This document shows positions 6,523 to 33,296 of a stretch of 64,000 bases of DNA, piece by piece. Origin of the DNA: Polynucleobacter sp. MWH-UH23A (GTDB lineage: Bacteria; Pseudomonadota; Gammaproteobacteria; Burkholderiales; Burkholderiaceae). Under the pieces are notes generated by a model, which did no database searches, was not told the origin of the DNA, and saw only the letters and a list, made by a program, of their open reading frames with translations. Position numbers and translations under genes: made by a program. Location of the stretch: contig NZ_CP099572.1 of the NCBI RefSeq assembly GCF_040409805.1, forward strand, positions 1,922,001 through 1,986,000. Direction: 5' to 3'. The stretch's first letter is position 1; each line of letters opens with the position of its first letter.

Positions 6523-6557
6523 AAATGAATTGTAGATTCGCAGATTAGAATGTGCTT

Positions 6558-8027
6558 ATGAGCAAATTATCATTTTTCTCCCTGGTGATCCTGACTGGCG
6601 GAGCTTTGCTAATCGGCTCAGCTCGAGCTCAAACGGATGAAGCGCCAACAGGGCAAGCAGTCTTTGAAGTTTTAGCCTCTGAGATAGCATTGCAACGGGG
6701 TGAGGCAGGCCTAGCCTATAACACCTATATGGAAATGGCTCGGCAATATAAAGATCCTCGCCTCGCTCAGCGAGCGATGGAGATTGGCATTGCAGGTGGT
6801 TCGCCTGAGCTTGCTTTACAAGCCGCCAAGGTTTGGGATAGCCTAGCGCCCGCTTCCGATACCAAACCCAAAGAAGTATTTATCACCCTTCTGATTCTGA
6901 ATAATCGCTGGTCCGATGCGGTGAAACCGGCGGTTTCCTTGCTACGCCAACAAACACCTGCTCAGCAAGAAAACACGCTTGTGCAACTACAAGCATTGCT
7001 AGGCAAAGCCAAGAATGAGTCTGAAGCTTTGCGCGCTTTTTATGAGATCGCTTCGAATGCAAAACTAAGTCCCAAGAATTTAAGTTTGCTTTATACCTAT
7101 GCCATGTCAGCCGAGAAAGTTGGTCGGGTTGATGTCATGGAAAAAACTTTGCGAGAAATTTTGCGCAAGAGCCCCAATGATGTGAATGCTCTTAATGCCC
7201 TTGGCTACTCTCTTGCTGATCGCAATACTAAATTACAGGAAGCATTTGCACTTATTAGTAAAGCGCATCAACTCTCCCCTCAAGATGCTTTTATCCTAGA
7301 TAGTTTAGGTTGGGTAAATTTCCGTCTTGGCAAAAATGAGCTTGCACTAGAACAATTACAGCAAGCATTTCGGATGAAGCCCGAAGCAGATATAGCCGCA
7401 CATACTGGTGAAGTTTTATGGTCCATGGGACGAAAAACTGAAGCAGAAGCCATGTGGCAAGAGGGTCAAAAATTAGACGCCAATAACACTACTCTTCAAG
7501 AAACTTTAAAACGCTTAAAGCCTGACTGGTTAAGCCCAACTCAAGCCCTAAAGGGCTCATGGGATGGACGTTTTGCCGTGAAGGTTACGGGCCTAACTGA
7601 GGCCCAAAATCAAGGGGGTTCTGGTGGCTTTACCTTAGTTCAAGACAATCTCAAAGATACTCTTGAGATTCGCAACCCTGTCGGTGGAGCAATTGCAAAA
7701 ATTACGATTACTCCAGGAGAAGCCACCCTAGAACGAGATGGTCAAATCACTAGCGCGATTGACGCCGATACTCTGGTGCAAAACACTTTAGGGCTTCCCT
7801 TGCCAGCAAGAGGTTTATCGAATTGGCTAAGGGGAGAAACTCGTCCAGGTAGCGAAGCTAGCATAGAGAGAAATAACAAGGGGCAGGTAAGCGAAATTCG
7901 TCAAGATGGATGGAATTTACGCTACACCTGGAGCGATTTGAACCGTCTCGATAAGTTAACGATGACCAGAAGCTCAAACATCGGATCGATTGATATTCGT
8001 CTTGTTTTTGATCAAGCAAATGAGTGA
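6558..8027 (+). CDS. lolB: TPR protein fused to a LolB domain, no lipid anchor
   Basis: One uninterrupted frame with a Sec signal peptide (ending SARAQ), TPR-type helical repeats to about residue 325, then a LolB domain to the end. LolB hallmarks are GRFAVK, EIRNPVGGAIAKI, a TLGLPLPARGLSNWLRG segment and IRQDGWNLRYTW. LolB accepts lipoproteins from LolA at the outer membrane and is normally a lipoprotein itself. The whole translation has no cysteine, so there is no lipobox. Context (lolB-ispE-prs) supports LolB. ATG 6558 is preferred to an in-frame GTG at 6552. It overlaps ispE by 8 bases. Related genomes usually have separate TPR and lolB genes here. Confidence 0.85.
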   Translation: MSKLSFFSLVILTGGALLIGSARAQTDEAPTGQAVFEVLASEIALQRGEAGLAYNTYMEMARQYKDPRLAQRAMEIGIAGGSPELALQAAKVWDSLAPASDTKPKEVFITLLILNNRWSDAVKPAVSLLRQQTPAQQENTLVQLQALLGKAKNESEALRAFYEIASNAKLSPKNLSLLYTYAMSAEKVGRVDVMEKTLREILRKSPNDVNALNALGYSLADRNTKLQEAFALISKAHQLSPQDAFILDSLGWVNFRLGKNELALEQLQQAFRMKPEADIAAHTGEVLWSMGRKTEAEAMWQEGQKLDANNTTLQETLKRLKPDWLSPTQALKGSWDGRFAVKVTGLTEAQNQGGSGGFTLVQDNLKDTLEIRNPVGGAIAKITITPGEATLERDGQITSAIDADTLVQNTLGLPLPARGLSNWLRGETRPGSEASIERNNKGQVSEIRQDGWNLRYTWSDLNRLDKLTMTRSSNIGSIDIRLVFDQANE

Positions 8028-31862: not shown

Positions 31863-33296
31863 ATGCGTCAATTTCTTAAGAACTTTGCACTAATCGCAAT
31901 TGGCTTGATAGCTGGTGTAGCTGCCACTATTCAGCTTTCAGCAACTGCCCAACAAGGCGGGCAACTCCCGCTAGATGAGCTACGTACACTCTCAAATGTA
32001 TTTGCCCAGATCAAGCGGGAGTATGTTGAACCTATTGAAGATAAGCAGCTCTTAACAGATGCCGTCAAAGGTATGGTCAGTAGCCTTGATCCTCACTCTA
32101 CGTTTTTAGATAAAAAAGATTTCACAGAAATGCAAGAGCAAACTTCTGGGAAATTCGCAGGACTCGGAATTGAAATTACTTCTGAAGATGGTGTAGTAAA
32201 GGTTCTCAATCCAATTGAAGACAGCCCAGCCGCACGCGCCGGTTTACAAGCCGGAGATTTAATCACTCGCTTAGACGACAAACCTGTTCGCGGTATGTCT
32301 CTTGACAAAGCAGTGCGCACTATGCGCGGCACCCCTGGTACCAAAATTACCTTAACGGTTTATCGCAAAAGCGAGGAACGTAGCTTCCCAGTAACGATTA
32401 CCCGCGCTGAAATCAAAGTGCAATCCGTTAAAGCAAAAATTGTTGATAACGATATCGCTTGGGTTCGCATTACCAGCTTCCAAGAGCGCACCGTTCCAGA
32501 TCTTGCTAAAAAACTCACCGACCTTGCTAACCAGAATCCAAAGCTAAAAGGTGTCATTTTGGATCTTCGTAATAACGGTGGTGGCCTATTACAAGGTGCC
32601 GTTGGGGTTGCCGCGGCATTCTTGCCTGCGGACTCTGTAATTGTTTCAACCAAGGGGCAAGCGCCAGATTCCAAGCAAGTCTTTAATGCGACTCCAGCAA
32701 TGTATCGGCTTAGCGAACCGGGCGATCCATTGGCGGGTGTCCCACCCATCTTCAAGAAATTGCCGATGGTCGTTTTGGTAAATGCCTATTCAGCTTCTGC
32801 ATCTGAAATTGTTGCGGGTGCCTTACAAGACTACAAACGAGCAACCATTATTGGCAAAACTACTTTTGGTAAAGGTTCTGTGCAAACCGTTCGTCCATTA
32901 ACAAATGATTCGGCCCTCAAAATCACAACCGCTTATTACTACACACCAAGCGGTAAGTCCATTCAGGCGTTTGGCATCAAACCAGATATTCCTGTTGATC
33001 AAAATAAAGATGGCGATCCTGATGATGTATTAATTACGCGTGAGATTGATAGCGAAAAACATTTACGTAATAAGCAATCTGCCGAAGATAAATTAATTAA
33101 GGATCGTGAAGAGCGCCGCCTACAAGAGCTTCAACGCATTGAAGATAAGAATGCTAAGAAAACTCCTGAAGAGAAAGAAAAGGACAAGAACAAGAAGCCT
33201 GTTGAACTGGGTAGCGCTGATGATTTCATGCTCACGCAAGCAGTGGCATTTATTAACGGTCAGCCGGTCAAGCGCTCATCATCCAAGCTTGAGTAA
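31863..33296 (+). CDS. Carboxyl-terminal processing protease, S41 family
   Basis: A 477-residue periplasmic protease: signal anchor (about 8-27), PDZ domain (about 90-175; GLGIEI..AGLQAGDLI), then the S41 domain with the catalytic Ser in ASASEIV and Lys in GKTTFGKGSVQT. A charged Lys/Glu-rich linker lies near residues 400-455. CtpA-type proteases trim or degrade envelope proteins. It lies between gpmA and a moeB-like gene, apparently co-transcribed. Confidence 0.93.
   Translation: MRQFLKNFALIAIGLIAGVAATIQLSATAQQGGQLPLDELRTLSNVFAQIKREYVEPIEDKQLLTDAVKGMVSSLDPHSTFLDKKDFTEMQEQTSGKFAGLGIEITSEDGVVKVLNPIEDSPAARAGLQAGDLITRLDDKPVRGMSLDKAVRTMRGTPGTKITLTVYRKSEERSFPVTITRAEIKVQSVKAKIVDNDIAWVRITSFQERTVPDLAKKLTDLANQNPKLKGVILDLRNNGGGLLQGAVGVAAAFLPADSVIVSTKGQAPDSKQVFNATPAMYRLSEPGDPLAGVPPIFKKLPMVVLVNAYSASASEIVAGALQDYKRATIIGKTTFGKGSVQTVRPLTNDSALKITTAYYYTPSGKSIQAFGIKPDIPVDQNKDGDPDDVLITREIDSEKHLRNKQSAEDKLIKDREERRLQELQRIEDKNAKKTPEEKEKDKNKKPVELGSADDFMLTQAVAFINGQPVKRSSSKLE

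Follow-up and report, generated by a model that had tools for sequence, protein, structure and literature searches.

LolB is an essential outer-membrane lipoprotein of Escherichia coli and is itself Lol-dependent (PMC11784454). In Pseudomonas aeruginosa, LbcA switches on the protease CtpA, whose targets are peptidoglycan hydrolases. LbcA carries a lipid at Cys17 (PMC11021448), it consists of 29 helices with 11 tetratricopeptide repeats (TPRs; PMC8764530), and its gene forms one operon with lolB and ipk (PMC6050968). Here we analyse a gene of the freshwater bacterium Polynucleobacter sp. MWH-UH23A at positions 6558 to 8027 of a 64,000-nucleotide stretch (contig NZ_CP099572.1, positions 1,922,001 to 1,986,000), which we call the window. 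By alignment, lbcA and lolB are joined in frame in this gene, and the signal peptide, lipobox and tether of LolB are lost. Its parts, in window positions, are listed below; pN/pS is the ratio of nonsynonymous to synonymous differences.

6558..8027, + strand: fused lbcA-lolB gene, start ATG 6558 (alternative GTG 6552), stop TGA 8025-8027; open frame matching LolB and TPR families
6558..6629, + strand: signal-peptide-like start, residues 1-24, ending in ARA before Gln25 and without Cys, as read from the sequence
6651..6845, + strand: N-terminal helices, residues 32-96, corresponding to the beginning of LbcA (weak LbcA stretch; published LbcA contacts; pN/pS 0.038)
6846..7517, + strand: TPR superhelix, residues 97-320; LbcA has a longer one (143-bit match to LbcA; helices in the structure model)
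7518..7559, + strand: linker, residues 321-334 (pN/pS 0.137 in close pairs; alignment with split relatives)
7560..8015, + strand: LolB domain, residues 335-486 (Pfam LolB)
7680..7682, + strand: Val375, the place of the hook residue Leu68 of E. coli LolB (sequence alignment)

A sequence-only reading of this DNA had described an unbroken frame that runs from TPRs into LolB, with no Cys and no lipobox. This description holds. The frame is open throughout, with neither frameshift nor stop between the halves, and from ATG 6558 it reads as a product of 489 amino acids with zero Cys. An in-frame TAG (6546-6548) lies just 5' of both candidate starts, so that there is no space for a lipobox upstream. 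The C-terminal part is LolB as claimed: it has the LolB fold, and Pfam LolB (PF03550) matches residues 336-486 with 89.7 bits against a cut-off of 23.7. A second, normal lolB elsewhere was named as one observation that would overturn the reading. A search of the whole 2.07-Mb single-contig genome gave one PF03550 match, the fused gene alone. Compared with E. coli LolB (PDB 1iwm), the fusion has no lipobox with an acylatable N-terminal Cys, carries a TPR domain in front and has Leu at the likely Trp52 place. Public databases already name the protein LolB. From its sequence, the label "lipoprotein" does not fit the Polynucleobacter product.

The sequence-only reading missed what the TPR half is and that it comes from a neighbouring gene. 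The new element of our finding is the identity of this half as an LbcA relative. Pfam TPR families match residues 177 to 298. Among all solved chains, the best relative of the TPR half is LbcA (PA4667; PDB 7rqf, 8sxe; E 5.3e-46), which is also the first Foldseek row for the structure model. The match falls into two separate stretches, one of 143 bits over residues 93-320 and a weak one of 20 bits over 33-211. Residues 33-46 correspond to the helix with which LbcA docks on CtpA. When we map the LbcA-CtpA contacts of PMC11021448 onto this helix, all eight contact places are hydrophobic or Ala here (the Gly46 and Phe48 contacts lie outside our mapping). Leu39 falls on LbcA Leu57. Hence the TPR half is, by homology, an LbcA-type adaptor of CtpA, with binding and activation of CtpA predicted.

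The resemblance to LbcA is not complete. LbcA is an outer-membrane lipoprotein with 11 TPRs and a gene of its own, whereas the fusion lacks any Cys, is joined to LolB and is shorter: residues 32-320 are modelled as 17 helices, too few for eleven TPRs (model confidence is low for residues 1-29). A search of the genome for a second LbcA gave just two TPR-type matches, both of them weak (E 1.3e-5 and 4.1e-4). A further comparable system is NlpI-Prc of E. coli, where a TPR adaptor works with a C-terminal processing protease that removes wall hydrolases. This analogy is drawn in PMC8764530, according to which the two systems are unrelated in sequence; NlpI-Prc also has no LolB part.

The genome holds a candidate for the predicted partner, 24 kb 3' of the fused gene:

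31863..33296, + strand: CtpA-like S41 protease, the sole S41 match in the genome

This protein matches P. aeruginosa CtpA with E 2.2e-108, and the docking helix of CtpA reads LPLDELRT in both proteins. A full-length CtpA homologue occurs in 61 of the 61 genomes of the genus that were searched.

To explain these observations, we propose a non-lipidated, soluble periplasmic LbcA-LolB fusion that does both jobs, a proposal to which we give about an even chance. Its activities, export, cleavage, soluble state and means of targeting are all part of what we infer. Sec would export the fusion, signal peptidase I would probably cut it, and the product would be soluble in the periplasm. The N-terminal helix would then dock on CtpA and turn it on, while the TPR superhelix would present substrates, by analogy peptidoglycan hydrolases. 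The LolB domain would accept lipoproteins from LolA and place them in the outer membrane. Because no lipid holds the fusion, its position at the outer membrane would have to depend on contacts between the TPR half and other proteins, together with the membrane affinity of the LolB hook.

One published result weighs against this proposal. E. coli LolB without its anchor takes cargo and missends outer-membrane lipoproteins to the inner membrane, as told in PMC10368991. There are three ways round this targeting problem: the TPR half could stand in for the anchor, the LolB half could have taken on a different job, or insertion could be the work of LolA alone. For the last of these there is a described case, the bifunctional LolA of Caulobacter (PMC11784454). 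Like the proposed fusion, it is a periplasmic protein that carries no lipid and brings lipoprotein insertion to completion. Unlike it, it is the LolA of a bacterium without LolB, whereas Polynucleobacter has both proteins (a LolA gene was found in the genome).

Selection on the parts helps to weigh some of the alternatives. We estimated pN/pS from 52 close pairs; the pairs share ancestry and the figures are descriptive. Both halves are under constraint. The N-terminal helices have the lowest value of the gene (0.038), the TPRs have 0.073 and LolB 0.058, the linker has 0.137 and the signal peptide 0.287, which rises to 0.652 over 600 sampled pairs.

The TPR half might have abandoned CtpA, with holding LolB at the outer membrane as its sole role. 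The repeats lost relative to LbcA, visible as two separate match stretches, and the need for a substitute anchor would fit. Yet the helices that should dock on CtpA are the most constrained part and keep their contact pattern, and CtpA itself is universal in the genomes searched. We regard this explanation as improbable. Much the same applies to the idea that the fusion is a precursor, whose linker is cut by a periplasmic protease, perhaps CtpA, to give LbcA and a soluble LolB. The linker is indeed less constrained than both halves, and CtpA slowly degrades P. aeruginosa LbcA in vitro (PMC11021448). However, no conserved cut site was seen in the linker, and the freed LolB would still be anchorless, which makes a precursor a poor prospect. 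Finally, the signal peptide could stay uncut and keep the fusion fixed in the inner membrane. The full-length fused proteins listed do begin with a hydrophobic stretch. But this stretch is poorly conserved, it ends in ARA-Gln here, like a cleaved peptide, and outer-membrane insertion from the inner membrane would be hard. We consider an uncut signal the least credible of all, with hardly any chance of being right.

The fusion with its missing lipid anchor is a property of the genus. A LolB match is present in 177 of 186 Polynucleobacter genomes, one in each. The nine genomes without a match are 64-85% complete, and all 144 genomes with a completeness of at least 90% and a contamination of at most 5% have one. 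Among the matches listed, frames measure 483-505 amino acids except in G135 (306), G058 (393), G140 (419) and G152 (149); the first three begin less than 800 bases from a contig end. The 149-residue LolB frame of G152 (G152:C41:32767-33177) lies in a genome that is 94% complete and could be a contig end, a broken copy or a split gene. Among the same rows, G124 has a stop within the profile match, yet the protein that we read there has 498 amino acids and is still fused.

We also read 80 named loci, labelled Polynucleobacter or, as metagenome-assembled genomes, Burkholderiaceae, Betaproteobacteria or beta proteobacterium. All 80 have an open frame with both halves, one of them cut by its contig. 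The fusion across the genus genomes and these loci rules out a sequencing or assembly error. Cys was counted on 80 uncut proteins, that is 79 loci plus the protein of the window. The lack of any Cys that had been noted for the window recurs in 54 of them. Two have a Cys beyond residue 45, and in a single one (L139) the signal peptide contains a string resembling a lipobox. Hence there is no conserved Cys for lipid attachment.

Within the LolB half, Val had been noticed at the place of Leu68. The residue is indeed Val375, and over 46 distinct fused proteins this place holds Val (26), Met (9), Ile (6) or Leu (5). The hook residue is hydrophobic in all 46, and this spread rules out Val as a mark of lost function. 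Judging from the alignment, it is a conservative swap that is uninformative on function. A second position appears more distinctive. Leu360 is invariant across 25 fused proteins, and the eight aligned split LolBs have Trp there. We take Leu360 to be the place of E. coli Trp52, from its spacing and the E. coli sequence. Of the two Trp residues of the E. coli lipid pocket, Trp52 and Trp117, the place of Trp117 is retained as Trp423.

To trace the origin of the fusion, we read 49 loci of the window's family outside the genus. In 44 of them, from 43 genomes and 17 genera (L052 and L096 represent one and the same genomic place), the TPR gene and lolB adjoin on one strand. The counts of neighbours and lipoboxes refer to these 44, since BLAST (E 1e-4) gave no TPR gene at L090 and L091 and no LolB at L092, L093 and L095. 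With mechanically assigned starts, the two genes overlap by four bases in 12 loci and by one base in 4. The split LolB has a lipobox in all 44 loci, in 41 by pattern and in L082, L089 and L097 by eye. In the alignment, the linker of the fusion stands where these relatives have the signal peptide, lipobox and tether of LolB. Because the TPR half is of the LbcA type and the two genes adjoin in relatives, the TPR half did not originate as a substitute for the anchor.

Where the TPR start was in reach, no lipobox string occurs within residues 1-80 at 16 of 17 family loci, a weak count with several over-extended starts. Thus an unlipidated LbcA may predate the fusion. Lipobox-like strings do stand at the start of L120 and L135, which are LbcA-like proteins from other families within the order, in contrast to the window's family. 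In a tree of the TPR block plus LolB with 17 fused (L001 and L061-L080 minus identical rows) and 42 split rows (L087 skipped, one identical), a branch with support 100/100 separates the fused rows from the split ones. One change is needed, although the root is not known, several branches are long and the sister group is unsure. A single event at the base of Polynucleobacter probably produced the fusion.

LolB itself can be lost. In a draw of 160 genomes from the window's family, a LolB match is present in 151 and missing from 9. Those without it are G203, G213, G192, G247 and five of 0.2-0.5 Mb; they are 93-99% complete and some measure 1.1-2.0 Mb. Loss of LolB may have happened repeatedly in this family. 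In another family of the order (f17), none of 16 genomes has a LolB match. The nine f17 genomes that we saw (L111-L119) keep a short LbcA-like TPR protein of 328-398 amino acids by mechanically assigned starts, with about 40% identity in the TPR half.

These absences bear on a further explanation, in which the LolB half of the fusion is no longer a general insertase. LolA would finish insertion alone, and the LolB pocket would grip lipoprotein substrates for CtpA. The anchor has gone and so, by our mapping, has Trp52, LolB is absent from the f17 genomes and from 9 of the 160 of the window's family, several of them very small, and Caulobacter LolA is capable of both steps in E. coli (PMC11784454). 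Nevertheless, the LolB half is as strongly constrained as its pN/pS of 0.058 indicates, and it retains an aliphatic hook and Trp423. We think such a change of job unlikely, though less so than the alternatives weighed above.

If the soluble fusion with both jobs exists, a genus with a constrained but lipid-free LolB would show that the anchor is replaceable, and would be a natural system for studying targeting in the last step. The union of LolB with a CtpA adaptor further suggests a tie between lipoprotein delivery and the control of wall hydrolases. We tentatively consider that the two halves act on each other, coupling outer-membrane growth to wall opening, with LolB targeted by protein contact instead of lipid; this is possible, and rather doubtful. 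If true, the gene-fusion argument would imply that LbcA and LolB also meet where they are separate neighbours. LbcA-CtpA activity is apparently connected to phospholipid transport (a 2025 paper, PMC12569750), which makes the link between delivery and hydrolases testable.

Outside the genus we looked for the fusion in drawn samples of the order and class, taking fused proteins to outscore TPR-only ones. Among the matches listed from the order sample (300 genomes, including 4 of Polynucleobacter), no other genus has it: all open matches with both halves are those 4, and rows such as G532 cross the TPR-LolB junction but carry stops. Among the matches listed from 187 genomes of the class (1 of Polynucleobacter), none lies elsewhere, the window's own being the sole match. 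A protein search gave 635 proteins; among the best 120 of 635, the 5 listed with an organism name are Polynucleobacter. No report of an LbcA-LolB fusion was found among the papers listed by our literature searches, judged on titles and abstract openings.

The gene that follows the fusion continues the gene order of LbcA, which is likewise followed by lolB and ispE/ipk (an operon according to PMC6050968):

8020..8904, + strand: ispE-like gene, open frame, whose ATG at 8020 shares 8 bases with the fused gene

Its start thus lies within the end of the fusion. The name ispE-like is our assumption from its sequence and the usual gene order. At the other end of the window, about 200 bases (1717-1919) separate an lptB-like from an hpf-like gene. 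In many proteobacteria rpoN stands between lptB and hpf; it is absent from this place, and the genome was not searched for it. Of the other Lol components, one LolC/E-type permease lies above the cut-off in the genome (G000:C1:1506151-1507395), which suggests that a LolF-type homodimer takes the place of a LolC and LolE pair.
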